A model generated the notes under the pieces. That model was given only the letters and a program-made list of their open reading frames with translations, was not told where the DNA came from and ran no database searches. Source: Halichondria panicea (Eukaryota; Porifera; Demospongiae; Suberitida; Halichondriidae). Taken from it: a stretch of 64,000 nucleotides of DNA. Shown here in pieces: positions 5,023-64,000 of this stretch (its first letter is position 1; each line of letters begins with the position of its first letter). Position numbers and translations under genes: made by a program. The stretch spans positions 4,696,620-4,760,619 of the forward strand of contig NC_087389.1 of the NCBI RefSeq assembly GCF_963675165.1, read 5' to 3'.

Positions 5023-8000
5023 ATGGCTATTAATACCAAGTATCAAAACCTTTTTGAATTCTGTATCCAAGGGGATCGGATTGGTTTAGCTGATTACATC
5101 ATTACTAATAGTTGTAACCCAAGTGCGTACGACGCTCGAGACATTAATGGACGAACAGCTCTTCATATTGCATGTCAGCATGGACACTTGTTCACTGTAC
5201 GCTCATTGATAGAAGTGTTTGGTTGTTCATCTACGATTGTTGATAAATCAGGGAATCTTCCTTTTCATGTTGCTTGCTTATATGGTCACTTGCCCATTGT
5301 GGACTATCTGTTTAGTCTTGTTGCCAACGAAGACATTTCTACAGCTGTTTTCCAGACTGACTCAGAAGGAAACAATCTACTTCATAAAGCATGCCAGTCT
5401 GGATCAGTCTCTACTGTTAGATACATTCTACAACTTGTTGGCTATCCAAAGAAAGATCTAATCTGCAAGAAACTCAACTTATACCAAGACAGCATTTCTG
5501 TGTATAATGCTGCTTCTATTGAAACAACCTCTTTATGCCAGGTGCAGTCAGTAATCAAGTGTATTACAAAGCAAAATACTCTAGGTGACACTCCAATCCA
5601 TGTAGCGTGCCGCCATGGTCATCTGAAGGTTTTGAAGATTTTTCAAGTATATTTTCCTTATAGTAATTTGCTGGAATCTCTATTTCTTATTGCTATAGTC
5701 TGCAATAACATGAGTATAATTAACTATTTCAAAGCTCTTAAGAATACGACTGTCTTAGATTTCAATTCTGAGGAACCAGGACTCTGCAAATGTGAGAAAA
5801 TAGATTCTCGTCAAAGATTCAGATTAATAACTTCGTTGGGATTGCGTGAAGACAGAGAATTATTCAGAGACAGAACCATGTACAGACGTAAGAATGTTCA
5901 TCCAATGGAAAGCGCAATCTGTGAACGTTGTCAAGATAGGTTAACAGTACTCAGTATACCAGCTTTTAATAGGTCTACATCAATGGGCCACTGCCCTTTT
6001 TGTAATGAAAAAGGTAATTATAAGAGAGAGTTTAGTTTTCATTGTGAGTCGTGTTCTTCAGTTTTGGCTAGTGATAAAATTGTAAGAGTGAACTGCTTAC
6101 TATGTAAATCGTTAAAGCTTACATTGTCGGCATTGGAAGACCCAGCCCACCTCCGTTTAGTTCATCCCTTACAGACTCATAAGCATCCAAAAGGACCCTC
6201 CCAAGCTGCAGCGTTATGTGGAAATCTGGAACCTTACCGGCAAGCACAAATGATGTTTTCTTCCACAGAAAAATATCTTTTTCATGCTGCGTGCATTTCT
6301 GATAATGTGGAGCTAGTTAAGCACATCATGGAAACATTAAATGTTGGTATTAATGAACTTGATTCAGAAGATAATACTCCTCTACATGTGGTATGTGAAT
6401 GGGGGTCTTGTAAGGTCTTTTCATTCCTCTTATCTTTTAGTAACCTCCAAATGACAAAGATTAATAAATTTGATCAGACTCCACTTTCACTTGCTGCTAA
6501 ACACTCAAGAATTGATTTTGTCACCAAACTCTTAGAGTGTGACATCAAAAATGATGGAAATTCTTTCCACCTTGCATGCGGTACGGGAAACATCGACCTT
6601 GTTAAGGATCTAACACAATGCAAGGATGATACACTGATCAATCATGTAGATAAGTATGGGGAAACTCCTATATTTGATGCTTGCCGTGGTGGACATCTAG
6701 AGTTGATAAAATTTCTTGTTACGAAAGGCTGCAACCCACTATTTATAAACAAACAAACTAAAGAAACACCCATTCATATTGCATGCAGAATGAACAGACC
6801 TGATATTCTTGAAGCATTGTGTCAATCTCAGCTGATAAATGAACAGTCTCTAGAATCAAACATCTGTGGTATTTCTCCAATCCATCTGGCTATTGAAAAC
6901 AATTGCTTTGAATTAATTCAAATTATTGTTAAATATTGTTCAATTAATCTGAACCAACCTATTAATGAGAAACAAGCAACGTTGGTACATTGTGCAGTCC
7001 AAATGGACGATATAGGATTGATCAACTATCTTCTCCAACAACCGTCTGTAAATTGGAATGCACAAGATAGCGACGGTAACACAGCTCTTCATTTGGCGTG
7101 TATTGATGAAAATTATGCTATTGTGAAGCTGGTTGCATGTGAAATGAAGCACGTTGACTCTAGCTCCTCAGCTGTGCCACTGCATTCCAATGTTTGCTCC
7201 GCAGTATCTCAAAATAATGTCAGAAAATCTCCTTTACACTTGGTTTGTGAATCCGAGAATACTGTCATCCTAAAGCATCTACTAGGGAAACTCCCCAAAG
7301 CTTGTAATTTGGACAAACTCGTTGATGCTGATCAAAATACAGTCCTGCATGTTGCTGTCAAGACTGGATGTATCGACACAGTTGTACTTTTATCAGAGAT
7401 TACTTCATGTACATGTAAAAACTCTTTAGGTGAAACACCAATACATATTGCATGTGGAAGTGGTAACCTTAAAATAGCATGTATTCTTTTTTCCAAAGCA
7501 ACTGATGCCGCTGTGTATTCCAAGAATGGAGATTCTTACTTGCATTCAGCCTGCCGAGGAAAGTCACTGGAGATTATTAACTTTTTGCTGAATAAGAGTC
7601 GACTCAACTGTCCCAGTCTATTTGTTGCCAATGAACACGGAAATACTCCTCTTCATGTAGCTTGCTTGCTAGGTAATGCTGAAATGATAAAGTTGCTATT
7701 ACCTCATTGCTCGAATCAAATTCGAAGTCTAAACAGTCAGAATCACACACCATTTTGCTGTTTGCTGATAGGTAAACATCCGAATGTCATTATGGATCTC
7801 TTGTCATCGAAAAAGATGGATGATAAATGGTGTACAGACGCTCAGCCAATGCTTCATTCTGTTGTCATATTGTCATCCAGTGAAAGGGTATATGAACTTA
7901 CAACGTTTCTTTTATCTGGAAAGTATTGCGACCCTTCAGCGTGTGACAAAAATGACAATACCATTTTTCACAGTTTCATACTTCGATTCTCAATGAGTAG

Positions 8001-11000
8001 CTATAGACAACCAAGCTACGTCTACTATTTTTCAAGTGATAATAATTTAAAACTATGGAATTACCTTCTAGAAATTCTTGGATCTGAGATAAACAAACAA
8101 AATATAAATGGTGACACACCTTTGCATATGCTATGCAATATTCATAAAAGATCCAGACATGGTGGGAATAACTATTCAAAACTAATGATTGAAAGATTGC
8201 TTGCTCATGCTGAAAGCAACATCAACAAATCTCTAACATCCAGAAACAAACTAGGCAAAACTCCCGTTCAACTTGCAAACAAACAAGTTATGAGGCTACT
8301 CATTCCATATGGAGCGAATCCCGAAGACGTTTACTTTGAATTTGGTCCCATACTAGACAAATTCAAACATGAGCACCCCCTAAAACCTTCAATGAAAATA
8401 ATAGTTGTAGGTAACTCTACAGCTGGTAAGACAACTCTTGTAAAAGCCATAGAACAGCTCGAGTTGAAGCAAGGTAGCACACCAATCGAAAGTGTTGGTG
8501 GCCCAACTGCAGGAGTAGAAACAATTGGACTGGAGAGCCCAGACTTAGGAGCTGTAAAATGTCATGATTTTGCAGGACAACCTGAATTTGAAAGCAGCAA
8601 TTCAGCTTTTCTAGAGAACTCAGTGTCTCTCGACCAATCTCCAATTTTCTTACTACTTGTCGATGTTAGTAATGACCTTGATGTAATAGAAAAGCACACT
8701 CGATATTGGTTTACATTTATACAGAATCATGCACCCCAACAGCTTGAAACACCACCCCATGTAATCATTCTTGGGAGTCATAGTGACTGTATTGATACAG
8801 CTCAACACAAAAACATTGAGAAGTGTTTAGCATCTGCAATTCAAAGCGTTCATTCAACTAATTTTCATGTTATTGGTCCATTTCTACTTGACTGCCGTAA
8901 AGTGGATACTAAGTTGCAAAAATTGAGCAAGATGTTAGCAAAAAGCTGCTCAAGCTTGAGAAAAACAGTTGATATTGACATCCGGTGCCACATTTTGTTT
9001 GCTTATCTATCGGAATGGTTCGGTTCTAAACCAGCTGTAAAATTTTGTGATATTCAAGATAGAATAAAGTCCTTGACCACTACGCTGTCGTGTGCATGCA
9101 CTATTCGCCAGCCAAATTTTTTTGAGATCAGTTCACATTCTGAATCACATGATGATATTCTTCCCTTCACTAAGGAAACGTTATTAGAATTGCTAAAAAG
9201 CCTTCACGCCGGTGGACATATACTATTACTAAATACAGAACCTGCAGAAGATTGTTGGGTTGTAATGGACAATGATTGGCTATTTGAAAAAGTGAATGGC
9301 ACCCTCTTTGCTCCAATGTCCTTTGATACACCAAAGCTACCAACAAACACTGGGGTGGTATCAGAAGATATGCTTATTTCTCTGTTTGGGCAGGTTGATA
9401 TCGACTTAATAACAGCATACACGGTGTATTCAGAGTTTTGTCGGAAGATTGAAGACCCAGTGACGCTAAATCTAATTGAAGGAGGCTGTACATCAGAATC
9501 GCAGAGTTTTGATCACGAAGAAGACCCACCTTTTATTTCTGACAATCCTGCTGAAGCAGAAGAAATTTTGAGTACTTCAGGCAACGAAGCATCAGACTCA
9601 ATTACTGCTCAAAAAAACTATTATTTCTTTCCTGGTCTAGTTAAGTGTGAGCGACAAGCTGATGTGTGGTATGCCAGCTCGCCTGCAAGCTTTAATTTTG
9701 GGTGGTACTTACTTTGCAATAAGAACAGCTTTTTGGATCCACGGTTTCTTTACGTACTTTTACTTCGCTTAACATTTACTTTTACTGCTTCTACCAAAGG
9801 CTCATCTCAACACGATCTAGTACGTAAGTGCAATATATGGAAGAATGGTATTCACTGGAGCACAACACGTGGTGTAGAGGTTTTGGTCGAGGTCATTGAG
9901 CAGAATACTGCTGTACTACTTTTGGTAAGGTGTTTAAAAGATCATGAGATAGAAGGAGTTAAGTTGCGATCTCAGGTAATTAACATGATCCTTGAAGCAA
10001 AGGATCAGTTCTGCTCAAAAGCTAGAGTTACAGAAAACATTCTTGCTGAATGTTTCCAATATCCTCAGAATTTCCAGCTGAAAATTCCTATTCTTGACAT
10101 TGCACAATCTATTGCCAAGGCACATGTCTGTGTTGTCGATTCAAGAAACAAGCCACTAATGTTAAGGGACCTTCTTTTTTTCGATCCATATCTTCAGATT
10201 GGGGAAAAGCTGATAGAAAAATTGTGGTCAAAGGAATGTTCAGAAGAAGAGGTACCATCTATCTTCCTGTTTGAATTATCTGAGGCACAGAGCACACTTG
10301 TGCATCAGATTAGCAAGCTTCTAGGTGTTCCTCAAAGTGATGTTGATTCATATACTAGGCAAAAATGGGAATCCGAACCTACTAAATTACTTCTCCATAT
10401 CTATGAATTATGGAAGGTCAGACAAAAAAAACCATGTTACGAGAATCTTCGCAAGGTTTTTACCTCACACAGCATCTTCTGTGGTCGGAACCCACTAGTA
10501 AGTTCTAACCCAACATACATAACCTTAATAATAATTATATACATGCATGCATGCTATTATAATAATACATTAATTGTATAGGAAGTGATGAAAGATGTAC
10601 CTCTGGACAAATCCATGTCATCTGATCAGATGCATGTACATGCCAAACCTCAATTAGAAGCGTGTATATACAGTGACCAAAGCCCTACTTTAAAGGCAAG
10701 TGCTATATATGCACATGCTAAACGTTGAACATTAAATGTTTGCATGGTCGATATATAATTATGCAAACACTTGTTATTTATTCATAAGTATAATTATAAT
10801 TAATATACAGACTTTCACAGCTTGTGCAGTATACAATGAAGCCAAGCCACGCACTGGATCTCATTTGCTGATAGGTGCGTAAAATGAGTTTTACGGCATT
10901 TTATTAGCTATAATTATAATGTATGTTAATATGGAGCAAAATTTGGCCGAGACTTGTATATTTTTCCTTGTAGTAAACCCGATGTTGGAAAACGTATCAA

Positions 11001-11434
11001 TTAAGCATCTTATAAGTATTACATGGCAGAGCGATCAATCAGGAAGAAGTACCTCTGATTGCGAATTGTGTATCCTAAGGGATGCTTCATGTTCCTGGGA
11101 GAAAATTGCAGAGACCCTCGAATTACAGCCACTTATGTTTAATTCCGATCCTCACACCCGAAAGCCACCACAGGATTGCACAAGTGACGTATTCAAGTGG
11201 TGGCTTACTCATGACACAAGTTATGATAAAACATGGACAGGTTTACACCGCCTTCTAATTGATTCAAACATGCCTGCTTTGGCCGAGCAACTTTATGAAG
11301 CAATTAACAGTCCGACCAGCTCAGCTCTCAGAGGAAGTCCCTTCAAGAATTCACCAAAGCCGTACACAAAACGTTCAACATCATCTCAACGAAGAAAGAA
11401 GAAATCATCAATATCGGGAGCTTCCAACTTTTGA
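5023..11434 (+). CDS. Ankyrin / zinc-ribbon / Roc-COR GTPase / death-domain protein (DAPK-like without kinase), copy 1, intact
   Basis: Predicted exons are 5023-10497, 10582-10695, 10811-10874 and 10974-11434, giving about 2037 aa. Residues 1-1100 hold many ankyrin repeats (TALHIACQHGH, TPLHVACLLGN). They are interrupted at about 300-361 by four CxxC pairs (CERC, CPFC, CESC, CLLC), a probable double zinc ribbon. The Roc GTPase follows: P-loop GNSTAGKT at 1130-1137, G3 DFAGQ at 1182, and a Roco-type G4, GSHSD, at 1251-1255. COR-like sequence runs to about 1800. The last two exons encode a death domain (SWEKIAETLELQ, LAEQLYEAI). Known DAPK proteins combine kinase, ankyrin, Roc-COR and death domain; no kinase is seen here. 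The ATG at 5023 aligns with paralogue starts. Intron 2 appears to use a GC donor. A cytosolic GTP-regulated death-fold signalling role is inferred. Confidence 0.88.
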
Positions 11435-16790: not shown

Positions 16791-19700
16791 ATGTCGGACA
16801 ATTAAAAGTTTAAGAGATTGTTTAAATTCTGTGTCAAAGGGGATCGAATTGGTCTAGCTGATTACATCATTACCAATAGTTGTAACCCAAGTGCGTACGA
16901 TGCTCACGACAGTCTCGGTAGAACAGCTCTTCATATTGCATGTCAGCATGGACACTTGTTCACCGTACGCTCATTGATAGAAGTGTTTGGTTGCTATTGA
17001 TTTGTTAGAGATAATGCTGGAAACCTTCCTGTTCATTACACTTGCCTGCACGGTCATTTGCCGATAGTAGACTATTTGCTTCACTTTAAAGGTGAGAGCA
17101 TTACTAATGCAGTGTTTGAGACTGACTCTGAAGGCAACAACTTGCTCCACAAAGCTGGATCAGCACCTGTTGTCAGGTACTTGCAAGAGATTCTGTGCTA
17201 CAATTCAAAGGATCTTATTCCAAGAAATCTCTATCTGTATTGTGATAGTGTTGCAGCTTATAGCATGTCTTTACCAAAGAAAATATGTCATCACACACGT
17301 TTAGTAGTTCTCGGTCTACTGACAAAGAATAAGCGTGGTGACACACCGTTGAATGTTGCATCTCGCCATGGTCATTTGTCTGTAGTTAAAATCTTCAAGT
17401 CATATATACCATTCTTGAAACAACTCGAACTAGCACTAACTGCTACAAAATGTAATCATATCCATACTGCAAGGTATATTATGAATTTGTACCCCCAGCT
17501 TGTTGATGTCGACTCGGAATCACTAATCGGACAAAAGGAATCTTCATATAACACCATTGGAAGAGATTCTATTTGAACGTTGCGAAATAATTTCTAACTT
17601 TGGCAGTGAAATTGTACACAAATCCATTAAATGTGTGGAGTGTAGTAGCTCGTTTGCAACCGATGAAATACTTAGACCATTCCCTATACTAGACGCTTTA
17701 CATGAACAAAAGCGAACAAATGAACGAAAATGGTCAATATCGTGTCCGGTATGTTCTGAAAAAAGGGCGAAAAATGTATACCACTTTGTTTGTCCTGAAT
17801 GCAATGTATCGTCTCAAAGCTCAAGTCTTTTACAATATCAGTGTGGCAGGTGCTTTGTGGAAACTAACCTGTCGACTAATCTAGATGCTAATAACTTTGT
17901 TCTGAAGAATATTAATGATGCTCAAGTTGGTTTTTCTCCTCTTTATGTTAACTGTTTGCAAGCTACTGTCCTTTTCGGAAATGTGCTGGCATTCAAGGAA
18001 TTTCAAGCCACTCACAATATTCCTTTTGATGTAACAATACTGCATGCTGCATGTGTATCTGATAATGTCACGTTAGTAACTTACATTATGGAAGTTTTAA
18101 ACTGTGGGCCAAATGTGCTGGACTCTCAAGGAAATAGGCATTTATGCATTTTTTGCATGTATCATGTGAATGGGGATCGTACAATGCGTTCTTGTACCTA
18201 TTGAAGCACAAAGACTTGCGGAGAGATATCCTCAACTTTAAAAATGAGAGTCCATTACTACTGGCATGCAAATATGATCGATATGATATTTGTGAGCATC
18301 TGCTTGACTCCACCACCACAACCACTGTTACTGATCAGGACACTCCCTTGCATCTAGCCTGTAGCAACAATAACATGAACCTTGTTATTAAATTTGTCAA
18401 TGGTGCTTCTTTGAACGCTGTTGGCCAGTATGGGGACACACCTATTTTCAATGCTTGTCGTTCTGGTGATCTGGAGATGGTCCAATATCTTATCAAAAAA
18501 GGCTCAAATCCAATTTATGTTAATATTTCAACAAAAGAAAGTCCTGTACACATTGCTTGTCGAATGGGTAGGTACAATGTTCTTTAAGCTTTGTTAGTAA
18601 AATCTTCAAAAATTATGTTTGGCGCGAACTCGTATGGCGCAACTCCTATTCAACTGGCTATTGAAAGTGGTTGTCAAAAAACTATTGAGGTGCTGTTAAA
18701 TTCCTATGACAACAAAGTATTTAAAAATGTACATAATGAAAGCCAGCAAACTCTGGCCCATTTGGTGTCTTTAGCAGGACAGACACATGTTGCCGAGTAT
18801 CTAGTGAAACATTCTGTTAACTGGAATGTTCAAGACATCGATGGAAACACTCCTCTTCATCTTGCCTGTAATAAAAACAATACAGATATTGTTAAGTTAA
18901 TTGCTGGCCATTGCACAGTGACAATTCAAAACAAGGACCTTAAGACCCCCATTCATATTGCAGTTCTCAGTGGAAAGGTTGTCATTCTAGATGCCTTGCT
19001 GGAAGGATATTCAGGTTCATTAGATGAATTTGCAGATTTGGATGGTAATACTGCACTGCATTCAGCGTGCCAAAGCAATAACGATTCCTCCTGTTATATC
19101 GTCAAAAGATTGTGTGACTACTGTTCTCTAACAGTTGAAAACAAGGAGAAATCAACACCCATGCATTTTGCTTGCAAATTTGGAAACTTTGCCTTGGTAG
19201 ATCATCTTTTTAAGAGATATAGCAGCTTACATTTGGATTGCTTGCTTGTTGACGATGATGAGAATACAATTCTTCATGTAGCCGTGGAAAACAGTGCTTC
19301 TTTAGAAGTAGTCACAGTGGTTTCAAATCATATAAGTCCTGTTCATAAGAATAAGCAAGGGGAAACATCAATACACATTGCCTGCAGAAACGGTGACCTC
19401 CCTATTGTTCGTCTGCTTGTTACTAAGGCTGCTGAACTTGTATTCACTGACAGTGACGATTCGTATTTACACTCTGCATGTTGTGGCAAATCTCTTAAAG
19501 TTGTGATGTTCCTAGTTGAAGAGAGTGGGCTTGCTTTTGACAGACTTATGAATACAAACAATGACGGAAACACACCATTGCATTGTGCTTTTATCACAGG
19601 TATTTTTGAGATCATTTCTTATCTAATGAGATATGCTAATTTGTATACTCAAAATCTTAACAAGGAAGGACTTACACCCTATTAGCCTCAGGACATTTTG

Positions 19701-22700
19701 CAGTCGCAGAACAGATCGATGAAATCATTGGCGAATGTAAACCTGAAAATCCTTTATTGCATTGTGTTTTCAACTATCTGAAGGATCCTACATTGCTTTT
19801 CAGAGTAGTTCAGTTCATTGTAAAGAATAGGATATCAGATGCATTAAAGTGTGATTCGAAAGGTAACACACTATTGCATTCCTTCCTGCATCAAATTGAA
19901 GTATGGTGCCTAACTGATTATGATGATAACATGATTCGAGAATGTTTACCGAAGCTGATCCCAGAATTTTGGAAATTCCTTTTAACCATACCTGGGCTTA
20001 ATATTTGCACTCAGAATCAACAAGGTTATACTCCTCTGCATATTCTTGTCCAGTCAAAGCTCTACTATGTTATGGGAATGATTAAGAAATACCTGGACCA
20101 TCTTACTAATGTAAGCGACAAGGTGAATTTAAGAAATGGAAATGGAAAAACTGCAATTCAGTTAGCTGATAGAAGTACTTCTTATCTTCTAATCAAGTAT
20201 GGTGCCAACCCTGATGATGTCTCTGCTTTGTATAGTGATATTCTCAACAGATTCAAGAAAGAGCACCCACTAGAACCGTCAATTAAGATAGTTGTTCTTG
20301 GTAATTCAAAAGCAGGGAAGTCAACACTCATTGAAACAATAAAGAGACAAGATTTACCTACTGCCTCACAACAGAATTGTACACATGTTGATGGTCCTAC
20401 TGCTGGAGTAAAGAGTACTGATCACACCAGTAATGTTTTGGGACATGTAACTTTTCACGATTTCGGTGGACAACCTGAGTTTGAAAGTGGAAATGCAGTA
20501 TTCTTAAGGACTTCAGTCTCCATTGACTATCCACCTATATTTCTATTGCTGGTTGATGTTCGTCAAGACTTTGTGAAAAGCGCTCAGTACTGGTTCTCTT
20601 ATATAAAAGACAACACACCCGTTCAGTTGGAAACGCCCCCTCATGTTATCATACTTGGTAGCCATAGTGATAGCATTTCCGTAACTGACCAAGACAAAGT
20701 GAAAAAACATATTGGATCTGTAATGAGAAGTGTTGGTTCAGGAAAATTTAAATTGAATGTCGCTGATCCAATAATTCTAGACTGTCGAGCAGTAGGCTCT
20801 GAGCAAATAAAGGTGTTAAGCCAAGTGCTAGCTGACAGCAGCACACAATTGCGACACTTGCTAGAAGTTGACTGTCGTTGCCATATCCTCATTGCTCATT
20901 TATTAGGATGGTATCACCAACAACACCCTGCTGTTAAATCTGTTAAATTCGAAGAAGTTAAAAAAAAAATTGAGTCTTCTACTGTTAATGATTATCATGA
21001 CGTTTTACTTCCAGCTACTACCCGTGATTTATTAGCTCTTCTAAAATGCCTTCATTCTGGGGGACATATCATCTTACTGAATCCTGACGACATTAATAGT
21101 TGCTGGATTGTTTTGGACAAACATTTTTTGTTTGAAATGGTAAATGGAACTTTGTTTGCTCCTCCTGATGATGACGGTTTTGATCACGTGACTAAAGTGC
21201 AAACAAACACTGGTGTTGTTACTAGCAGTATGCTCAAATCTCTTTTCAAAACGAGTGAAATTGATCATATTATCGAGTACATTACCTACTCAGAATTTTG
21301 TCAGAAGATAGAAGACGATGAAACTGTTACGCTGATTGAAGCTGCTTGTTCTAGCAGCACAAAGTCAGCAATGCAAATCGAATGTGAAGAGAGTGGACAT
21401 GTGTCAAGCGTTGAAGTAACTAGACAGCAATTGAAAGAGGAGTATTTTTTTCTTCCATGTCTTGTACGATGTGAACACCCGGATCATGTTTGGAGTGATG
21501 ATGAACATACATCACATACCGGTACTTTCAGTTGGTATATGAAATGCAACAGATCTCACTTCTTGAATCCAAGGTTTTTGCATGTGCTACTGCTGAGACT
21601 AACTTTCGACTTTGTCACCCAATCCAATTCTGAGCCACTGCAACGTAAATGCAACATATGGAAGAATGGTATTCACTGGAGCACAAGGTCTGGAGTGGAG
21701 GTGTTAGTCGAAGTCGTTGAGCAAAACACTGCTGTTGTACTCTTGTTGCGCTTTATTGATGGGCACGAGTTGAAAGGAATAGAACTTCGGTCTAAAATAA
21801 TCGAGAAAATTCTTCACACCAAGGAAGAATTTTGCCCAAGTTCTGAAGTCATGGAATTTGTAATTCCTCAATATTTGAGCTATCCAGCCAATTTTTGCGA
21901 TGTACGAAAAGTATCAATCGGTGAAATTTCCCAGGCTATGTCTGAAGGCAATCCTTGTGCTTTTGATTCAAACCATAAAAGTCATAAATTGAAGTCAATT
22001 CTACACTATGACTCGTATCTTCAATTTGATCACAGTCTTATCGAGTATTTGTGGTCGAACGATGATGATCAGACAGAAGTTCCATCTGAACAACTGTCAA
22101 AACTCACTAAAATGCCAACTGGTGAACAAATGAGAGTACTGGGACAAGAACTTGTTATACAAATTGAAGGCCAGGAGAAAATATCTTACAGGAAGCTCCA
22201 TGAAATATTGGGAAGTTTTACTATCTTTTGCAATCGGAATCCTTTGGTAAGTGACTTATACATGCAAACTGGATAAAATTGTTACCACATTTTGTTCTTA
22301 GAAATTAGCCTCAGCGAAGATCCCAGAAATGTACAAAGAATCTCGATGGCAGCCCAATGTTAACAGTAAATGACACCAATAATGCCCAATTTTAAGGTGT
22401 TAAATAATGTATGCTTTCTTACCATAATTATAAAGCACCCAGCTCCAGTATAGTCACACAAAGGCTGCAGGACCACATCATAGGATCTGATAACCCTCTG
22501 CAAAGCCTACCTCCACACTCAACAGTGAGCCAGGATTCTCAAATAACCAATGTTATTATTCCAACGATCACCGAAAAGGTACGTAAGCTATAATAGTTAG
22601 ATTATAATTATAGTATGGATACAGATTGGCTCTTCTGTTGTGTCTCTCCCAACTAGTGCACCTGTAACGTACAGTGAGTTGGTTTATAGCCATGTATGTG

Positions 22701-23652
22701 CGTAATGTATTTTCCTCTGCTTATTAATCTATAATTTATACTGTATAGGGGAGGGTATAAATTTTCGCGGAAATGCCTTTAAAAGGTTTTTGTGGATTTT
22801 ATTTTCGTGGAATAACAGCCTTTTTGCAGCATGCATGCATGCGATATTAAATTCGCGGTACATGTTTAATCCGCAAAAACCACGAACATTTATACCCACA
22901 AAATATATACCCTCTATAATACGGTATACTTATCATTTTATGTACACTCATATGGCGTACGTATATATGTAGGTACCTCAGGACCTTGTAAGGTGACTGT
23001 GAATGAGCTAAAGAAGCAATTTAATATTAGCGATGATCAACTTGGCAATAGAGTCGAAAAATCTGACATTAAGAACTTGGCTTCTTTTTTTGGTGATGTA
23101 GAACTCTATCTCCCAGGCTTACGTCTGTGTGAAGCAGATGACGCAGATGTCCGAACAGCAGTTCACCTTCATGGCAATCAAACTGGAATGAACAAAGCTC
23201 TTACCATTTGGATTAACTCGTATAAAGCAACTTTCAAAGATTTGATTTCTATCGCTTTGGATGTACGTAAAGCAATTGTGGCTGAAAGGATTTGCAAGCA
23301 TTTGCAGCAAAACAGTGAGTGCATGCAGGTTGTGCAGGTTGTGCATGCTTCCTACGTGTTCATATAAACATCCATACATGCATGCATGCATATACCGATA
23401 AAGGTAAATTTGGTGACCAATTAATTTTGACAATTTGGCGAATCAAAGTGAGGGTGGTCCCCGATACACCGCCAGCTTATTATCGTTAAATTAAACTTCA
23501 CCAATAATAATTCCATTGCCTCCTTTGTTGGTAATGAAACCCTTGAAACCTCATTTATGTCGTATATTCAACCATTACAGATCACAGTGAATCCAGTCTA
23601 CCAAGTAGTTCACCCCCCTAAACGACCAAGGCGTGACCCAGACATGCGATAG
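16791..23652 (+). pseudogene. ANK / zinc-ribbon / Roc-COR / death-domain paralogue, copy 2, broken in the ankyrin half
   Basis: It aligns with copy 3 throughout. The start is ATGTCGGACAA, but codon 5 is TAA (16803-16805; GAA in copy 3). Further lesions are TGA at 16998-17000, a 9-base in-frame deletion near 17157, frame changes near 17550, 18150 and 19683, and TAA at 18585-18587. From about 19757 on, the frame is open through the Roc domain (GNSKAGKST, DFGGQPEFES, GSHSD), COR and small exons 22302-22365, 22436-22578, 22625-22673 and 22973-23314 encoding the death domain. The last exon starts at 23581. A 2-base deletion relative to copy 3 moves its stop to 23619-23621 and removes the PPKRPRR tail; the ancestral stop would be 23650-23652. 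A shortened Roc-COR-death protein starting near the ATG at 19931 remains possible. Confidence 0.82.
22745..22925. repeat. MITE in an intron of copy 2
   Basis: GAGGGTATAAATTTTCGCGG at the left faces CACAAAATATATACCCTC at the right, followed by TATAATACGGTA as in the GCGGGTAATTTTCG family. It lies in the intron between the last two death-domain-proximal exons. The corresponding intron of copy 3 (33034-33137) is much shorter and lacks it, so insertion followed duplication, or it was lost there. Confidence 0.55.
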
Positions 23653-33100: not shown

Positions 33101-34010
33101 GTGCACTCATATACGGCGTACGCATATTTATGTGTAGATACCTCAGGACCTTGTAAGGTGACTGTGAATGAGCTAAAGAAGGAATTCAATATTAGCGATG
33201 ATCAACTTGGCAATAGAGTCGAAAAATCCGACATTAAGAACTTGGCTTCTTTTTTTGGTGATGTAGAACTCTATCTCCCGGGCTTAGGTCTGTGTGAAGC
33301 AGATGAGGCAGATGTCCGAACAGCAGTTCACCTTCATGGCAATCAAACTGGAATGAACAAAGCTCTTACCATTTGGATTAACTCGTGTAAAGCAACTTTC
33401 AAAGATTTGATTTCAATCGCTTTGGATGTACGTAAAGCAAATGTGGCTGAAAAGATTTGCAACTATTTGCAGCAAAACAGTGAGTGCATGCATGTGCAGG
33501 TTGTGCATGCTTCCTACGTGTGCATATAAACATATCCATATACATGCATGCATAATTATACCCTTGGTAATTTTCGGAATTTGGCGAATCAATGTGAGAA
33601 TCCCAGCTTGCAGTAAAATTATCGCATGATCGTCAAAATAAACATTGCCAATAATTATAGTTCAATTGCCTCCTTCATGCATGCCAAATTTACCTGCTTA
33701 TAAATTATATGCGGTTTATATCGTATATAGCAGGTTATTTTCGTGGTTATTTTCGTGCTCAAGCTGACCTCCACGAAATGTTAACTTAAGCGTGGCTTAC
33801 CGGAACATATAAATGCAGTGCAGGCAACGAGACTAAACAAAATTTATACTCACGAAAATCACCGTTCGCATTATACGGTATGCGGTAATTGTATGGAACC
33901 CTCGTTTATGTTGTATATTGAACCATGCATTCACAGATTGCAGTGAATCCAGTCTACAAAGTAGCCCACCACCCCCTAAACGACCAAGGCGTGACCCAAA
34001 CATGCGGTAG
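27101..34010 (+). CDS. Ankyrin / zinc-ribbon / Roc-COR / death-domain protein, copy 3, complete except for one in-frame TGA
   Basis: Predicted exons are 27101-32608, 32673-32736, 32792-32937, 32985-33033, 33138-33479 and 33937-34010: 6183 bases, or 2061 codons counting an internal TGA. Ankyrin repeats fill about 1-1140, with four CxxC pairs (CQSC at 286, CPTC, CNKC, CREC at 342) at the same place as in copy 1. Roc carries GNSKAGKT at 1175-1182, DFGGQPEFES and GSHAD. COR-like sequence follows. Exon 5 encodes a death domain (GNQTGMNKALTIWIN, LISIALDV) and the C-terminus is a basic PPPPKRPRR tail. TGA at 31952-31954 replaces an arginine codon present in both paralogues (LLLRLTF), and the frame continues undamaged to the end. 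It may be a recent or polymorphic null allele, a sequencing error, or a truncated product of 1617 aa lacking the death domain. Confidence 0.85.
33719..33883. repeat. MITE of the GCGGGTAATTTTCG family in the last intron of copy 3
   Basis: The left end GGTTATTTTCGTGG, with AGCTGACCTCCACG inside, faces CTCACGAAAATCACCG and TATACGGTA at the right. The internal part matches the element at 55720-55906 (CAAGCTGACCTCCA). Confidence 0.6.
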
Positions 34011-39593: not shown

Positions 39594-39674
<81 letters not shown>

Positions 39675-46039: not shown

Positions 46040-49000
46040 CTAGTACATGCAGTACTTTCTCCTAATAGCTGATGACAAGTCTCCATAATCAATGTCATGG
46101 AGAGCGTCGGCAATATTGCTCCAAGTTATTCCTCGACTCTTGTGGTTTTTGGCAATGAACTGGAACAGGGCAATCTTTTGACCTTCGGTATCTGAGAGAT
46201 TTAATGTGAACTGTAATCCAATGCTTTTACAATCCATATATGTTGTTTGATTTACCGAACGGATGGTCTTGCTGGATGACCTCCAGTCGGTATTGGGGAA
46301 TGTCCAAATTGACCCCAAACTGTATTGGTTTTGTGAGTGTCTTGAGCTCCTTGTCCAGAATATTAATAGTCAACTCTGGAGGGACTGATGGATGGGAGAG
46401 GGAGATTAGTATACTATAATGTACTTGCAATGAGTGTGCGTATAATTATAATTATAGCGTTAGAGTAAAAAGTATTAGTGGCAGGTGCTCTACCTGAACT
46501 GACTTGAGTTGTTTTTGTTGGTAAACTTGGGAGGGATGGTTCATCTTTACTAGAGTAAGCAACTGATACAACAGAATCTGTATATATAATATGCATGTGT
46601 TTGTTATGTGAGGGTCCATGCCGGCCAGGTGTAAGAGATTTGAAAAGCTAGTTTCATCTTTATAGTTTCAGCTATGTATCCAAGGCTTAGAAAGATATTA
46701 TACTCAAGCGGTTATACTTCACCTGTTTCCTCTCGCTCCGTAATTATTTGGGTAGACTGTACGGTAGGACAGGTAGGCTCATCGTTGGGTGGTTCTATAG
46801 CTTGAGGAGAATTCTGGTTATGGGCACGAAGGTCTGGAAAGAAGATCACATAACTGGCAACATTACTCTCAGTGTCCAGTGCATTGTCTGTTTGGTTGAG
46901 CTGCAATAAGATCAGATTAAAATCAAATGTTCACATAAAAATAATGTGCTACATGCATGCACTCACGTCAAATAGTTCAGCTATCTCTGATAGTAGCGCA
47001 TCCCAAAGTTCATAAAAAATAGGAGTCATCTATATAGATTAAAATGATAGTGTCTATACGCCCATAATTAGATAAAGAGACTTATACCTGTGGAGGTAAA
47101 GATGTTCTCTCCCATTCATTCAACACTGCGGTTCTACGTGATTCATCTATGACCTGCAAAGTATAAAGTAATGATAATAATGAACCACAACAAAGTATAA
47201 GTACCTTCAACTGATTGTTGCACATAAGTATCAACTCCTCGCTCACAGGATTACCACCGAGAGCAACGGTATCATCCTCATCATCACTCTCGACGTTGAG
47301 GTTTTTCAGTCTAGGGAACAGCTCTGGTAAACACTCAGTGAGAGCTATCACTCCTCCATCATCAATGCAGTTGTTTATGAGGAGTAACAACTTTAAATTT
47401 CTACATGTCACATTGGCAGACTTGAGATGTTGGATAAGCATTATGATGTCGGTAGAGGTGAGAGAACAGTCAGAGCAGCTAAGGCCTTCCAGTGATTGAA
47501 ATGCTTGAAGAATCTTTGCCAGTAAGAGAGTTCCAGCAGCTCCACTGAAATTGCAGTTAGTTAAAGCCATCACTGTTAAACTGTTTGGGTGAATATCCAG
47601 CATCTCACAGGTGACTGTGTATTGAGACTCTGAAGTGGTGAGATGGGTAGCTGATAAATCTATGTAAGTCAATCCTAACGGAATGTTCTCTATAACGACA
47701 CATAATCCAGGTAAACCAAGATTATTCTTAGAGAGTGATAATTCTACCAGATCAGGACAGTGAGGGGCAATCGACTGTAAGAGGGTGGTCAGTAGAGCTC
47801 CATTGACGTCAGCATCGTCAGTGAGGGTGTTGGTGAGCTGCAGTACTTTCAGGTTGAAAAGAATACCAGACTGTACAGCTGTCTCTAATGACTGTATGCC
47901 AGACACTCCAAGAGGGTTCTCGGATAAGTCCAGTTCTGTGAGGTTGGTACAAGAAGTGTGCGTGAATGAAGACATCACGTTAGTCAAGTTGTTTTTCGGC
48001 AAAGAGATTTCATTTAAAGCAGTAAAGGCAGTTGAAGCTCTCTTGAATAGATCAGCAACACCTTTGTCAGTCAACTTAGTCTGCTGTAGGGATAATTTTT
48101 GGACTTCTAGTTTACCATTCGCATTCGAAAGTATGTCAGTTAGTTCCTTCAACAGCTTATCATTGATTGCACAATCGAATATGTTGATATCCATAACACA
48201 CCTCTGTGTAGTATGACGAAGAACATAGAATCTAGCTATAAAGTCGAAGGGAGTGCTGACAGTGTTTAATAGATGTTGTCCATGCATTACACAAACTTTT
48301 GTTGAGAAGCCAGGGTTTAAAGCTTCGAAAGCCACATCAAATAAAGTCATAAAACTAAACTCCTTACTAGCCACCAGCATTAAACCATCACTCAAACTGA
48401 TCATCTTATCACTACAACTACCATTGTGTTTACTAGCAAGACCAAACATAAATCTCCACACCATTTTGAACCCGTATCTCCTAGAATTAGCCTTAACAAC
48501 CTTCAGTTTCTCTTTATTGGGTAGAGTAGCAAGATGGAGGGCAGCCAAGAACTCTTGGATGGTCAGGTGAGCAAAGTGAAAAGACAGGCCATGACCAACA
48601 GGTAGAAGTGATCGTGCAGACTGCAACAGACCAAAGCACTGCAACTTGTCACCAACGTTGGGTAATCGAGAGGACAATTCGTCTTCTGAGAAAACCAGCT
48701 GATCTAGTAATAAGCACTCATAGGCAAACTCACAAATCAACCAAAATGTATCTTGTAGATTGTTGGGAATCTTGTCAAACCTGTTGAGGCCAATTGGACA
48801 ATCAGGGAACTTCTTTTTGATGTTGCGAAGGATAATACTAAGAATAATTTGAGTGTACAGCTCAGTTAGTGTACGAGGAAGTTCTTGGTCTAAAGTGTGC
48901 CACAAGTTACAAACAATGGCACAATTGAGGGGCACAGAACACACACTCTGAATGACTGGGTTGTTTTCAAGCTGCTCGATAAGAGAAGAAGCTTTCTCTG

Positions 49001-49742
49001 GGAATTGCTCAAACTCAGATTCTATGTACTGCTTGATATTTTCTTTATTAAAACCGACTACCTCAACCAAATGGGTCACAGAAGGAAGGTTGTGAAGATT
49101 AGCTGAAGCAGAAGGTCGTGATGTGAGGAGAACAACAGCTGAAGGAAGAAGACGTCCAAACAAAAGTTTGTATAAAACAGACTCTTTGGAACGGTTGGCT
49201 TCACTGAGCTCGTCCCATCCATCAGCTATGATCAGCACTCCCTTTCCTCTTGTCCTCTTTAGGTGTCGAGCAACAGACTCACAGATAGTCTCATCGGGGT
49301 GATGAAGGGCCAGGATGTCAGGAAGAGAAGAAGCCGAGCTGACTAACTGATCTCTTAGCGGAAGCAACAGAACACAGTCGAATTGTGCCAGGATCTTTCC
49401 CTCTGCCCACCCTTCTGCAAGCATGGTGCACAGTGTGGTTTTACCGATCCCAGCATGGCCTTCAACAATGAGCTTCTTGACTGGCTTCTTGCCTTTTTCG
49501 ACTTTGAATAAGCTACCAAGGAGGATTGGACTGCGTTTGATACGTTTGACCTTATCATCAGGTGCACCATATTGTGGCAAGCCAGCTCTATATCCGGCTT
49601 TCTTTTCTGCTTCCACTAACTGCAAGTTAATCAGCCTCTCTCCAGAAACTGGTGGCCATTTTTCCTCCATGTTTAATTGTCTCTCTCTGTAAGCCTCTCT
49701 AATACCTTCAACAAACTCGCTCAACGCTTCTTGTGCTTCCAT
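46040..49742 (-). CDS. NACHT-LRR protein with C-terminal death-fold domain, NLR copy 1, intact
   Basis: Predicted exons, in transcript order: 49742-47205, 47153-47088, 47029-46967, 46900-46723, 46577-46494, 46384-46256 and 46191-46040. They total 3210 bases, 1069 aa. After about 90 residues with no recognised effector domain comes a NACHT NTPase: Walker A GHAGIGKTT at 95-103, Walker B VLIIADGWDEL at 169-179, and VVLLTSRPSAS. A helical region follows (NNPVIQSVCSVPLNCAIVC; FHFAHLTIQEFLAALHLA). Ribonuclease-inhibitor-type leucine-rich repeats occupy about 540-835 (LTELDLSENPLGVSGIQSLE). Exons 4-5 encode a Pro/Ser/Thr-rich linker. Exons 6-7 encode a death-like fold (FGVNLDIPQYRLEVIQQ; ITWSNIADALHDI). 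NLRs are cytosolic sensors; the ligand is unknown. The ATG chosen is the first in frame; an upstream coding exon cannot be excluded. Confidence 0.88.
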
Positions 49743-51491: not shown

Positions 51492-54400
51492 TCACATTCT
51501 AGATCTAGTGCCGTATTTCCCCCTAACAGCTGATGACAAGTCCCCATAATCAATGTCATGGAGAGCGTCGGCAATAATGCTCCAAGTTATTCCTCGACTC
51601 CTGTAGTTTTTGGCAATGAACTGAAACAGGGCAATCTTCTGACCTTCAGTATCTATACGTGGGTATTGAGAGATTTAATATGAACTCTAGATCAATAATT
51701 ATAAGACAAGGGTGCAATAATTATCATCCCTAATTATATGATATACATAATCAGTTACCATTTCGATTGTCTTGCTGGATGACCTCCAGTCGGTGTTGAG
51801 GAATGCCCAAACTGACCCCAAACTGCATTGGTTTTGTGAGTGTCTTGAGCTCCTTGTCCAGAACATTAAGCGTCAACCCTAGAGGGACAAAATAGGACTG
51901 GAGGATGAGGGAGATTAGTACTACCGCTTATATAGTACCGAATACTGAATACAGATAGGAAAGTCCACAAGTTTGCAATGTGCACATAATATAAGAGTTA
52001 TATTTAAAATATTACTTGGCAAGTGCTCTATACCTGAACTGGCTTGAGTTGCTCGTGGAGATGAAATTGGGAGGGATGGAGTAATTGTTCCATTTTTACT
52101 AAAGTCAGCAACTGACACAACAAGCTCTGTATGTGTGTGTCATGTGAGGGTTCGTGCAGGCCAGGAATTAGGGATTCTGATAGCTAGCTCCATTACAATA
52201 TATTATTAGTAGGTCTGGTCCATGCAGTTATGTATACCAAGGTTCAGATGATATGATGTTAACTCACCTGTTTCGTTTTGCGCTGTTACTTGAATAGACT
52301 GTACAGTAGGACAGGCAGGCTCATCATTGGGTGGTTCTGTAGGATTCTGGGCATGAGCAAGAGGGTCTGAAAAGAAGATCTTGTAATCACCGACATTACT
52401 TTCAGTGCCCAGTGCACCGTCTGTTGTGTGGAGCTACAATATAAGTTTAAAATCAAAACTATGTTCACATAAAATGTGCTATATGCTAATGCTCACGTTC
52501 AGTAGTTCAGCCACCTCAATTATCTCTAACAGAAGCATATCCCAAAGTTTGTAGAAAACACGAGTCATCTGAAATCATATATGATAGTGTCATATGCCCA
52601 TAATTTTAAAAATTACAATGTATACCTTTTCATTTTGCGGAGGTAAACACGTTCTCTCCCACTCGTTCAGCATTGCGGTTTTCCGTGATTCCTCAAAGGC
52701 CTGCATTTTTAGATAATGAGTGAAATGCAACATACTTAATTGGGAACTATGATTATATACCTTCAAGTGTTCGGTACACATATGTAGTAATTCCTTGCTG
52801 ACAGGATTACCGAGGAGAATAATACCACCCTTGTAACCGATGCTGAAGACCTTCAAACTAAGAAATAGCTCAGGTACACACTCAGTGAGAGCCATCACTC
52901 CGTTATCATCAATCATGTTGTATCTGAGATCCAACGACTTTAAATTCTTACATACTACATTGGCAGACTTAAGATGGTGGATAAGCATTATGATGTCGGC
53001 AGAGGTGAGAGAACAGTCAGAGCAGATGAGTTCTTTCAGCGATTGAAATGCTTGAAAAATCTTTGCTAGTAAAAGAGTTCCAGCAGTTCCACTAAAATTA
53101 GAGCCAGTTAAGTTTATCCTTTTTAACCAGTTAAAGTTATTTGAGTGAAGATCCAGCATATCACAGGTGACAGATTGAGACTCTGAGGAAGTATAATGTG
53201 TAACTCTAAAATCAATGCGATTCAATCTTGATGGAATATTCTTCACAACTGAACACAATCCAGGTATGCCAAGATAATTATCTGAGAGGCTTAAGAATCT
53301 CATTCCAGCACAGTGAGAGGAAATGGACAGTAAGAGGGTGGTCAGTAGAGCTCCGTTGACGTCAGCATCGTCAGTGAGGGTGTTGGCTAACTCCAGTCTC
53401 ATCAGGTTGATAAGAGCACCAGACTGTATAGCTGACTCCAATGACTGTATGCCAGACACCCCAAGAGGATTGTCGGATAAGATAAGTTCCGTGAGACTCA
53501 TACAAGATGTGTGCAAGAATGAAGTCATGATGGTAGTAAAGTTGTTCTTGCTTAAAGAGAGCATATGTAAAGCTGTAAAAGAAGTTGAGGCTCTCTTAAA
53601 TAGATCAGCAACACCTTTGTCAGACAACTTTGTCTGTATGAGGGATAACTCTCGGATTTGTAGTTTACTATTCACATTCGAAAGTATGTCAGTTAGTTCC
53701 TTCAAAAGCTTATCATCGATTGCACAATAGGATATGCTGATAACCATATTGTCACATTGTGCAGCATGACGAAGAACATAGAACTTAGCTACACAGTCAA
53801 AGGGAGCCTTGAAATAACAATATAACAAAAATTGCTCCGACATCATACAAATTTTTATTGCAAGGCCAGGATCTGAAGATTCAAAAGCCAAATGACTTAA
53901 TGCCAAAACGTCTGTATCCTTTTTAGCCATTAAAAATACATCCATCAAACCATCGTCCAAACTGATCACCTTATCACTACAACTACCATTGTGTATACTA
54001 GCAAGACCAAACATAAATCTCCACACCATGTCAAACCGACCACTGTCAGCACGAGCCTTAACAATCTTCAGTTTCTCCTCATTGGGTAGAGCAGCAAGAT
54101 GGAGGGCAGCCAGAAACTCCTGGATGGTTAGATGAGCAAAGTGAAAAGACAGGCCATGACCAATAGGTAGAAGTGATCGTGCAGACTGCAACAGACCAAA
54201 GCACTGTTGCTTATCAGTGATTTCGGGTAAACGAGAGGACAATTCAGCTTCTGAGAAAACCAGCTGATCTAGTAATAAGCACTCGTAGGCAAACTCACAA
54301 ATCAACCAGAACGTTTGCTGTAGGCCATTCGGAATGTCGTCAAATCTATTTAGGCCAATCGGACAATCAAGAAATTTCTTTTTGATATTGCGAAGAATAA

Positions 54401-55280
54401 TGTTAAGAACAATTTGAGTGTACAGATCAGTTAGCGTACGAGGAAGCTTTTGTTCTAAAGTGTGCCACAAGTTACAAACAATGGCGCAATTGAGAGGCAC
54501 GGAACACACACTCTGAATGACTGGGTTGTTCTCAAGCTGCTCGATAAGAGAAGAAGCTTTCTCTGGGAATTGCTCAAACTCTGATGCTATGTACTGCTTG
54601 ATATTCTCCTCACTAAAACCAACTACCTCAACCAAACGGTCCACAAAAGGAAGGTCGTGAAGAGGAGCTGAAGCAGAAGGGCGTGAGGTGAGGAGAACAG
54701 AAGCAAATGGAAGAACATCACCAAAAACAAGGTTGTATAGAAAGGACACTGTGGACTGGTTCTTTTCATTAAGTTCGTCCCAGCCATCAGCTATGATGAG
54801 GACACCTTCTCCCTCTCTATCCTCCAACTCCTCTATAACAGATGTGCGAATCCTCTCACTGGAGTGGAGAAGTTTGAACAGTTCAGCAAGACTTGTGGCT
54901 GAAGATACTCGATTCTCTCTTAGTGAAAGCAACAGAACACAGTCAAAGCGTTTTAGGATCTTGCCCTCTGCCCACCCCTCAGCAAGCATGGTACACAGTG
55001 TGGTTTTACCAATCCCAGCATTGCCTTCAACGATGAGCTTTCTCACTGGCCTCTTGCCTTTTTCGACTTTGAAAAGGTCACCATGGAGAATTGGAGTACG
55101 CTTGACCTTATCATCAGGTGCACCATGTTGTGTCAAGCCAGCTCTAAATCCTTCTTCTTTTTCAGCGTCCACTAACTGTAAGTTTATCAGCTTGTCCCCT
55201 CTAACTGGTGGCCATTGATTTTGGCGATTCAAGAGTCTCTCTTTGTACTTCCGGCGAATGCTAGCAATGAATTTATCCAT
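51492..55280 (-). CDS. NACHT-LRR protein with C-terminal death-fold domain, NLR copy 2, intact
   Basis: Predicted exons, in transcript order: 55280-52761, 52700-52626, 52568-52497, 52433-52268, 52126-52034, 51878-51759 and 51652-51492. They total 3207 bases, 1068 aa, with the same seven-exon plan as NLR copy 1. Walker A is GNAGIGKTT at 86-94 and Walker B is VLIIADGWDEL. The NACHT-associated helical region and leucine-rich repeats (LTELILSDNPLGVSGIQSLE) match copy 1 closely, while exons 4-5 diverge more. Exons 6-7 give the death-like fold (FGVSLGIPQHRLEVIQQ; ITWSIIADALHDI). Upstream of the ATG, the sequence TTTTTTCTCAG then GTTTTGTGC looks like an acceptor, so a 5' non-coding or coding exon may precede it. 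The fragment just before the chosen start has no recognisable domain. Confidence 0.88.
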
Positions 55281-61408: not shown

Positions 61409-61612
<204 letters not shown>

Positions 61613-64000
61613 CACCAATCGCTCTACCCCTGCTGTGCATTGCATGGGGTAAAAATTAATGTGCTATACGTGCACTTACGTCAAATAGTTCAGCCATCTC
61701 AACCATTTTTGACAGTAACGTATCCCACAGTTTGTAGAAAACACGGGTTATCTATAGATTGAAACGATAGTGTAAAATGATGCCCATCATGATAAAAATA
61801 GCTAGACTTACCTCTCTATTTTGTGGAGGTAAACACGTTCTCTCCCACTCATTTAGCACTGCAGTTTTTCGTGATTCTTCAAAGGCCTGTACTTAAAATA
61901 ATGAATTAAAATGATGAAAAAATATATACCTCCAAGTTTTCGTTGCACATATGTATCAACTCTTTGCTCACAGGATTACCACAGAGATCAATGTCACAAT
62001 GGTTCGCGGTACCGAAAACCTTCAAACTAGGGAACAGCTCTGGTAGACACTCAGTAAGAGCTATTACTCCATCATCATCAATGCAGTTGTCTCTGAGATC
62101 CAATTCATTTAAATTCTTACATATTACATTAGCAGACTTGAGATGGTGGATAACCATTATGATGTCGGCAGAGGTGAGAGAACAACAGTCAAAGCAGATA
62201 AGTTTTTCTAGTGATTGAAATGCTTGAAGAAACATTGCCAATAAAAGAGTTCTAGCCATTCCACTGAAATTAGAGCCAGTCAAGTACAAACTTGTTAAGC
62301 ATTTTAGGTAGAGATTCAACATCTCACAAGTGATTGTGTATTGAGATTCTGGGTGAAATGAAGTGGTAGGATGGGTAGCCGATAAATCTACGTGACGCAA
62401 TCGTAACGAAATGTTTTCCACAACTGATGAAATTAAACCAAAATTGTTACAAGAGAGGTCCAAGTATTCCAGGTCAGCACAGTGAGAGGCAATGGACTGT
62501 AAGAGGGTTGTCAGTAGAGCTTCATTGACGTCAGCATCATCAGTGAGGGTATTGGAGAGCCCCAGTTCCAACAGGTTGATAAGAGCACCAGACTGTACAG
62601 CTGTCTCTAATGACTGCATGCCAGACACTCCAAGAGGATTGTGAGATAAGTACAGTGTTGTGAGGCTCGTACAAGATGTGTGCATGAATGGAAGACATGA
62701 CGTCAGTGAAGTTATTATTATACAACGAGAGGTGGTCTAATGTTGTAAAGGCTGCTGAGGCTCTCTTGAATAGATCAGAGACACTTTTGTCAGACAACTT
62801 AGTCTGCCTGAGGGATAACTGTCGGACTTGAAGTCTATCTTCAGCCTTTGAAAGTATGTTTGTTAGTTCCGTAAGCAACTTATCTCGAATGCACAATTAC
62901 CTATTCTGATTTCCATATCATCACATTGCGTCATGTGACGAAGGATATAGAAACAAGCTTCATAGTCAAAAGGGCCGTCCCAGGAACTGATTAATTCATA
63001 TTGACCAACCAATTCACAAATTTTAATAGCAAAGCCAGGATTGGAAACTTCGAATGCTACATGACAAAAGAAGGGCGCTGGATTATTTTGCTTTACAACT
63101 ACCAGAAATTGATCCATCAAACTATCATTTAAACAGATGATTTTATCACTATGACTACCATTGTGTTTACTAGCAAGACCAAACATAAATCTCCACACCA
63201 TGTCAAACCGGCTACTGTCAGCACGAGCCTTAACAATCCTCAGTTTCTCTTTATTGGGTAGAGTAGCAAGATGGAGGGCAGCCAGAAACTCCTGGATGGT
63301 CAGGTGAGCAAAGTGAAAAGACAGACCGTGACCACCAGGTAGAAGTGATAGTGCAGACTGCAACAGACCAAAGCACTGCAATTTGTCACCAACTTCGGGT
63401 AAGTGAGAGGACAATTCAGCTTCTGAGAAAACCAGCTGATCAAGTAACAAGCATTCGTAGGCAAACTCACAGATCAACCAGAACGTGTCTTGTAGATCTT
63501 TCGGAATCTCATCAAAACTATTGAGGCCAATAGGACAATCAGGAAAATGTTTTTGGATATTGCGAAGGATAATGTTAAGAACGATTTGAGTGTACAGCTC
63601 AGTTAACGTATGAGGAAGCTTTTGGTCTAAAATATGCCACAAGTTACAAACAATGCCACAATTGAGGGGCACAGAACACACACTCTGAATGACTGGGTTG
63701 TTCTCAAGCTGCTCGATAAGAGAAGAAGCTTTCTCTGGGAATTGCTCAAACTCTGATTTTATGTACTGCTTGATATTTTCCTCGTTAAAACCAACTACCT
63801 CAACCAAACGGTCCACAGAAGGAAGGTCGTGAAGAGGAGCTGAAGCAGAAGGTCGTGAGGTGAGGAGAACAGAAGCAAATGGAAGAACATCACCAAAAAC
63901 AAGGTTGTATAAAAAGGACACTTTGGACTGGTTTTCATCACTGAGTTCGTCCCAGCCATCAGCTATGATGAGGACACCTTCTCCCTCTCTATCCTCCAAC

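Follow-up and report, generated by a model that had tools for sequence, protein, structure and literature searches.

Two arrays of receptor-type nucleoside triphosphatase (NTPase) genes lie on opposite strands of a 64,000-nucleotide stretch of the genome of the sponge Halichondria panicea (the window; C13:4696620-4760619, C13 being contig NC_087389.1), and raise the question of which output modules these receptors carry and whether the two families share them. The three genes on the plus strand (A1, A2 and A3) are Rocos with ankyrin repeats and a Roc GTPase domain, and the three on the minus strand (B1, B2 and B3) are NLRs with NACHT and leucine-rich repeat (LRR) regions. Two candidate death-domain modules encoded by small 3' exons, DD1 and DD2, are at the centre of the analysis. 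In a profile search of 1513 open reading frames (ORFs) of the window, DD2 was confined to A2 and A3, and DD1 to B1, B2 and B3; one extra DD2 match on the other strand (E=0.049) was regarded as noise.

Searches of the genome (131 Mb in 39 contigs) favor an exchangeable pool of death-domain exons joined to two receptor NTPase families, Roco and NLR, within a large repertoire of duplicating genes for innate immunity or cell death, a reading to which we assign a probability of about 0.68. DD2 is found after Rocos, after the NLR family of the window type, and before another NLR family, and DD1 is an alternative tail of the window NLR body.

Distribution and proposed re-pairing of the tail modules

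All genome counts are lower bounds, and Roco loci were not filtered for pseudogenes. The genome contains at least 150 copies of DD2 (best 150 of 583 candidates scored, 150 matches). The Roc-COR search (best 63 of 172 candidates scored, 120 matches) gave at least 63 loci after merging, 44 of which are on C5 and C7. Close likeness to A1 is seen only among the window Rocos (47-49% identity), the other listed Roc-COR loci sharing 28-34% identity with it. Ankyrin repeats are present in the Rocos that were read (A1-A3, L044 and L047), and L047 (C12:3674532) has long ankyrin repeats too. A search with the NACHT domain of B1 (best 90 of 265 candidates scored, 95 matches merged into 84 loci) placed at least 31 related NLR loci on C13, 40 on C7 and 13 on other contigs; this list is confined to the B1 family and its relatives on C7 and does not extend to all NACHT genes.

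Module positions were recorded within 6 kb and on the same strand, among the matches listed (best 150 of 583 for DD2; 32 of 64 for DD1, comprising the stronger ones and those on C13). Within this scope, DD2 is downstream of 29 of the 63 Roco loci, with no case upstream. Among the C7 NLRs it is upstream in 18 of 39, at a distance of 219-530 bases, and downstream in none; this count excludes the fortieth locus, C7:3303686 (L027), which is followed by a DD2 after about 5.8 kb. On C13, DD2 lies downstream of 8 of the 31 NLRs and in one case upstream, at a distance of 4.7 kb; DD1 lies downstream of 13. A DD1 is also found within 6 kb upstream of eight C13 NLRs, where it is read as the tail of the preceding gene of the array. 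None of the 31 has both modules downstream.

Direct reading of the DNA showed DD2 after the NLR body in all 12 C13 loci L009-L020 (5.07-6.31 Mb), whose bodies are 47-76% identical to B1, and DD1 after the body in all five loci L021-L025 (4.06-4.89 Mb). L009-L017 and L021-L025 were chosen for a module already listed nearby; L018-L020 were not so chosen. DD2 of L017 is more than 5 kb away, L020 is a partial match, and the bodies of L013-L015 are in two frames.

In a tree of 18 NLR bodies (nine with DD2, seven with DD1 and two unlabelled; three rows long-branched, five with stops written as X), the tail label changes three times, at least two of these changes being forced by starred branches, and B1, with a DD1 tail, pairs with L009, with a DD2 tail, at 97/91. 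NLR body and tail are thus separable, even if recombination misleads the body tree. The tree of DD2 itself (30 rows, 14 without a known body) splits into a mostly-Roco and a mostly-NLR side at 89/92. The window Roco copies belong to the Roco side, with 1.6 changes per column separating them from the nearest other row; the C-terminal copy in L027 clusters with the upstream-type C7 copies at 99/96. The sharing of DD2 between the families thus looks old, with later movement among NLRs. Recent local exchange of DD2 between the window Rocos and the C13 NLRs was also considered; the DD2 tree gives it no support.

The ratio of nonsynonymous to synonymous substitution rates (dN/dS) is 0.42 for the NLR body (10 stop-free bodies, 45 pairs; 0.30 for the NACHT part and 0.50 for the LRR part) and 0.34 for DD2 (six C13 NLR loci), which points to purifying selection on both bodies and DD2s.

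Two further arrangements were seen. At L027/L028 (C7:3303000-3316000), an NLR that includes a 1934-residue LRR-rich frame is followed by tandem DD2-like, DD2 and DD1-like frames, possibly several death domains in one tail. At L063 and L034 (C6:3463900-3468430), a GTPase whose Roc score of 19.6 bits stays under the cut-off lies together with a frame for an Ig domain, and a DD2 follows downstream; this is perhaps a further receptor type with this module.

Structure of the six genes and their surroundings

The features of the window are as follows.

5023..10497, plus strand: A1 giant exon with ankyrin repeats, Roc GTPase and COR-like region; 1825 codons, intact, donor GTAAGT (ORF; Pfam Ank and Roc)
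10974..11434, plus strand: A1 C-terminal death-like exon; putative acceptor, sub-cut-off Pfam Death match
16806..22246, plus strand: A2 ankyrin-Roc-COR-like body, broken; Roc-COR part open (ORFs, Pfam)
22302..22673, plus strand: three A2 linker exons (22302-22365, 22436-22578, 22625-22673), in a model with all introns GT-AG
22973..23314, plus strand: A2 DD2 death-module exon; 93% identity to A3 DD2, hmmsearch E=1.6e-38
27101..32608, plus strand: A3 giant exon with ankyrin repeats, Roc and COR-like region; in-frame stop at 31952-31954 (ORF, Pfam)
32673..33033, plus strand: three A3 linker exons (32673-32736, 32792-32937, 32985-33033), all GT-AG
33138..33479, plus strand: A3 exon for the DD2 death module, with a GTGAGT donor at its 3' edge (DD2 family alignment, profile search)
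46040..46384, minus strand: B1 DD1 death module on two exons (46256-46384, 46040-46191), protein end; Pfam Death E=0.056, L049 likeness
46494..47029, minus strand: B1 linker exons 2-4 (46967-47029, 46723-46900, 46494-46577), all GT-AG
47088..49742, minus strand: B1 giant exon with NACHT, HD2-like region and LRR; intact, Pfam NACHT 88.4 bits
51492..51878, minus strand: B2 DD1 death module on two exons (51759-51878, 51492-51652); spliced model and profile search
52034..52568, minus strand: B2 linker exons 2-4 (52497-52568, 52268-52433, 52034-52126), all GT-AG
52626..55280, minus strand: B2 giant exon with NACHT, HD2-like region and LRR; intact, Pfam NACHT 89.8 bits
59243..59659, minus strand: B3 DD1 remnants, with a frame change in the first DD1 exon (ORFs, profile search)
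61906..63999, minus strand: B3 NACHT-LRR body with two frame changes, running past the window edge to a gene start in L060

A preliminary description of this DNA had proposed three ankyrin/Roc-COR/death genes and three NACHT-LRR/death-fold genes, each with sensor and NTPase on one giant exon and a death-fold module on small 3' exons. The contents of the giant exons on both strands were confirmed by Pfam. The overall anatomy also holds for three plus three genes, but only A1, B1 and B2 are intact, and A2, A3 and B3 (the other three of six) are broken. Predicted frames with GT-AG introns lead to the death module in B1, B2 and A3; the A3 frame contains a stop, however, and for A1 the joining of the giant exon to the tail exon is putative.

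Roc matches exceed the Pfam cut-off of 27 bits in A1 (31.5), A2 (33.3) and A3 (34.5), and the ankyrin repeats are N-terminal to Roc in all three. The Roc-COR profile of A1-A3 matches LRRK2 Roc structures in the PDB (E=4.6e-6), over the Roc part only. COR was detected weakly, by a sub-cut-off match of A2 alone to PF16095 (COR-A, E=0.025), and the region after Roc is referred to as COR-like from its position and this match. No kinase domain was found by Pfam in the three giant exons or in the ten upstream plus-strand ORFs tested, more distant exons not being excluded. A2 has three frame changes and two in-frame stops. In A3, five exons join through GT-AG introns into a frame that is open except for the stop at 31952-31954. 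DD2 is a module of about 114 residues on a single exon after three small exons (A3, and one of the A2 models), and the A3 gene probably continues past it, since the exon ends in a GTGAGT donor.

The tail of A1 differs from the DD2 of A2 and A3, so that a uniform ankyrin/Roc-COR/death architecture was borne out for Roc and ankyrin but not for the tail, nor firmly for COR. Its single relative in the genome is C6:4330454 (E=7e-6), and the only Pfam family it matches is Death, over profile positions 2-85 of 86 (E=0.04, below cut-off); it is a probable death domain. The intact A1 gene has a near-orphan, death-like predicted tail. A W...Y..L pattern had suggested a further death-like fold where the COR-like region finishes; a check gave it no support, and it was dropped.

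NACHT (88.4 bits in B1, 89.8 bits in B2) and LRR_6 are over cut-off in that order in B1 and B2. In both genes, six exons join through GT-AG introns into open frames of 1086 and 1088 residues, respectively, that end in DD1 followed by a stop. Pfam found no effector domain in the giant exons of B1 and B2, domains other than DD1 and DD2 on 5' exons not having been searched. Neither DD1 nor DD2 occurs 5' of the NLR bodies among the 1513 window ORFs, or in the 401-1191 bases upstream of 13 C13 NLR bodies. Frame changes break B3 at two points of the body and at one point of the death module.

The two arrays are about 12.5 kb apart (33480-46039), with exon-like frames in between. The small frames at about 36000-45500 on the plus strand are rich in coiled coils, match no family at curated cut-offs, and probably belong to an unrelated gene. 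To the left of the window, L059 (C13:4690620-4696620) contains a minus-strand gene resembling 3-beta-HSD/epimerase (138.4 bits) and a transposase-like frame, and thus the Roco array appears to stop at A1. Between A1 and A2 are retroelements, with RVT_1 reverse-transcriptase fragments at 12983-13552 and 15314-16078 on the plus strand. No Rfam family is present in the window at gathering thresholds; it contains an 81-base tandem repeat of 2.7 copies and a 102-copy CA repeat (43449-43663; 61407-61610).

Death-domain assignment and alternative readings

Single modules of A1, A2, A3, B1 and B2 were compared with Pfam Death; the broken module of B3 was not tested whole. For DD2, Death matches 19 of 30 aligned copies at E<=1 (best 1.9e-5), and the next family matches 6 of 30. 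For DD1, Death matches two of seven members, with the B1 module at E=0.056, below cut-off. Residues 8-92 of the 95 in B1 DD1 match L049 (C14:2097084) at 30% identity, and the genome search ties DD1 residues 11-91 to the same locus (E=8e-5), which scores 27.3 bits against Pfam Death on re-test (cut-off 22.6). In a genome scan with Pfam Death (best 150 of 503 candidates scored, 148 matches), over-cut-off sites overlap 4 of the 64 DD1 matches: C14:2097084, and C1:3935566, C8:5423875 and C14:2857373 (E 0.002-0.009). L058 on C4, a diverged NLR at 51% identity, has a C-terminal Death match over cut-off (27.7 bits). DD1 and DD2 are therefore taken as death domains by homology, an assignment that depends on their relatives.

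A series of observations weighs against a shared pool of death-domain exons, beginning with the modules themselves. No tested window module exceeds the Pfam Death cut-off alone; the A3 copy of DD2 has no Death match, and the A2 and A3 DD2 exons have none at E<=0.1. A single-sequence AlphaFold2 model of A3 DD2 is poor (predicted local distance difference test 51, predicted template modelling score 0.37), which leaves the DD2 fold unconfirmed. Profile searches of the PDB gave non-significant matches to CRADD (E=0.25) and FADD (E=0.57), behind an unrelated chain (E=0.063), and a DD1 match to RIPK1 (E=0.62) that was obtained with a two-sequence profile and lost with seven sequences. Direct homology of DD1 and DD2 found no support: their profiles do not match each other. 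The sub-threshold scores, the PDB results and the poor model would all suit 3' modules that are other helical linkers or scaffolds and imply no network. This is quite unlikely, given that Death leads among the families matched by DD2 and that DD1 relatives and the tail of a diverged NLR exceed the Death cut-off.

The distribution of the modules contributes to the same side of the balance. Of the 63 Rocos only 29, and of the 31 C13 NLRs only 8, have a DD2 listed within 6 kb, and the 13 NLR loci on other contigs have neither DD1 nor DD2 among the matches listed. In the DD2 tree, one Roco copy (L046) is placed in the mostly-NLR half, and the NLR body tree may be misled by recombination among copies. 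Tail type is clustered along C13, and half of the genes of the window are broken. These last two points, together with fragmented adjacent copies (e.g. C13:4765 and C13:5064-5065 kb), are what would be expected at the edge of a decaying tandem array, made up mostly of pseudogenes or decoys without signalling, in which tails differ by random turnover. Such an origin is unlikely in view of the full six-exon frames of B1 and B2, the intact giant exon of A1, and the dN/dS values, which stay below 1 for the ten NLR bodies free of stops and for six DD2s. The preliminary description had instead treated the adjacent arrays as one linked functional locus that signals jointly through common adaptors. 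The nearest Roc-COR and NACHT matches are indeed 15.7 kb apart, both families have death-like modules, and DD2 accompanies both elsewhere in the genome. However, among the 63 Roco loci and 84 NLR loci listed, a Roco comes within 50 kb of an NLR only in the window, where all three Rocos do so (15.7-37.8 kb), and the next nearest spacing is 779 kb. Moreover, the DD2s of the window Rocos are not close in the DD2 tree to those of the C13 NLRs, the tails differ between the two arrays, only one of the three Rocos and two of the three NLRs are intact, and a probable unrelated gene lies in between. A linked locus is thus very unlikely; the neighbourhood is most likely incidental.

Related systems and proposed mechanism

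An exchangeable pool of death-domain exons, the preferred reading, can be compared with several known systems. DAPK1 has ankyrin repeats. In the available part of PMC6337361, the third Roco group (DAPK1) is described as metazoan, with a death domain and without LRR. The window Rocos resemble DAPK1 in having ankyrin repeats and Roc, here followed by a COR-like region and a candidate C-terminal death domain (with family-level support for DD2 and sub-threshold support for A1). They differ in that the DAPK1 kinase precedes Roc-COR and none was found in the window Rocos, and in their giant single exon, the death module on separate exons and the many loci versus one. An expanded Roco family has also been reported in brown algae, where the accessible text of PMC11378527 gives 9-47 ROCOs, above other organisms reported to 2024, and proposes an immune role and exon shuffling. 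Likewise expanded, and similar to those proposed immune receptors with exon shuffling, the sponge family differs in having at least 63 loci, ankyrin repeats in the members read and a variable tail, whereas in the algae the LRR exons of LRR-ROC-COR proteins are shuffled. The number of loci exceeds the brown-algal range as given in that text, and the Rocos become candidate immune receptors in an animal lineage that branched early. Roco-TIR proteins in a mollusc are mentioned in the part of PMC9334734 that was available.

Sponge NLRs were sorted by their Pfam N-terminal domains in Dysidea avara; in the sections available of PMC12909245, the NLRX class, without such a domain, is the most expanded and likely ancestral. 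The NLRs described here share with NLRX and NLRD the NACHT-LRR body and expansion in clusters, and the C7 family, in which NACHT is closely preceded by DD2, is similar to NLRD. By Pfam, B1 and B2 would fit NLRX, yet their predicted C-terminal module falls outside its definition; the window NLRs add a death-like module to what those sections present as simply NACHT-LRR. If C-terminal death modules have been overlooked, the NLRX class and the inferred order of events need re-examination. We consider it an even chance that NLRX-type sponge NLRs are full receptors signalling by way of cryptic C-terminal death domains, as exchangeable cassettes common to the kinase-less Rocos of at least 60 loci and to N-terminal NLRDs, with sensor and signalling partner evolving independently out of a single genomic pool of such exons. 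NLRP1 and PIDD1 are sensor proteins with a C-terminal death-fold module. The window NLRs resemble them in the position of the death-like module and differ in fold subfamily and linker; in the NLR exons of the window that were tested, Pfam gave no FIIND, ZU5 or UPA domain. A further likeness is to the sponge Amphimedon, for which the accessible portion of PMC8195603 describes extensive death-fold architectures particular to the lineage; these are TRADD-N proteins with N-terminal death-fold units, and that portion describes no Roco or C-terminal-death NLR set. Among the top-ranked open-access matches, as far as their available text goes, no paper was found describing C-terminal-death NACHT-LRR or sponge or death-domain Roco architectures like these.

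NLR and Roco families undergo NTP-dependent oligomerisation or a change of dimer state, and death domains assemble homotypically. Part of the background on the NTPase mechanism comes from the accessible text of PMC6337361. For the sponge genes, we infer splicing in vivo, the death fold, oligomerisation, pairing, output and exchange by recombination, with a presumed route from sensor clustering through death-domain assembly to caspase recruitment. Sensing by LRR or ankyrin repeats would free the NTPase, which would oligomerise (NACHT) or switch its dimer state (Roc-COR) and so cluster the attached death domains. The clustered domains would nucleate an assembly that recruits adaptors, with activation of caspases or inflammatory signalling as the outcome. 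Recombination between tandem copies may re-pair tail and sensor, which is possible because the tail sits on separate exons. It seems that sensor and output can evolve independently of each other. Because DD2 precedes one NLR family and follows both another and the Rocos, the concept of exchangeable output modules is open to direct testing.

A common death-domain network is plausible, since both families end in death-like modules and DD2 is also found beside two NLR families. The suggestion that both arrays converge on common death-domain adaptors thus gains from the occurrence of DD2 beside Rocos and NLRs and from adaptor-like genes elsewhere in the genome, but the two arrays of the window have no module in common. 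L065 is FADD-like, with frames for DED (44.8 bits) and for Death (27.5 bits), and L066 combines two DEDs and a caspase at one locus. At L067 (C8:3218500-3222700), caspase, SEFIR and Death are present in consecutive same-strand frames, each over the Pfam cut-off, possibly as one caspase-SEFIR-Death gene.

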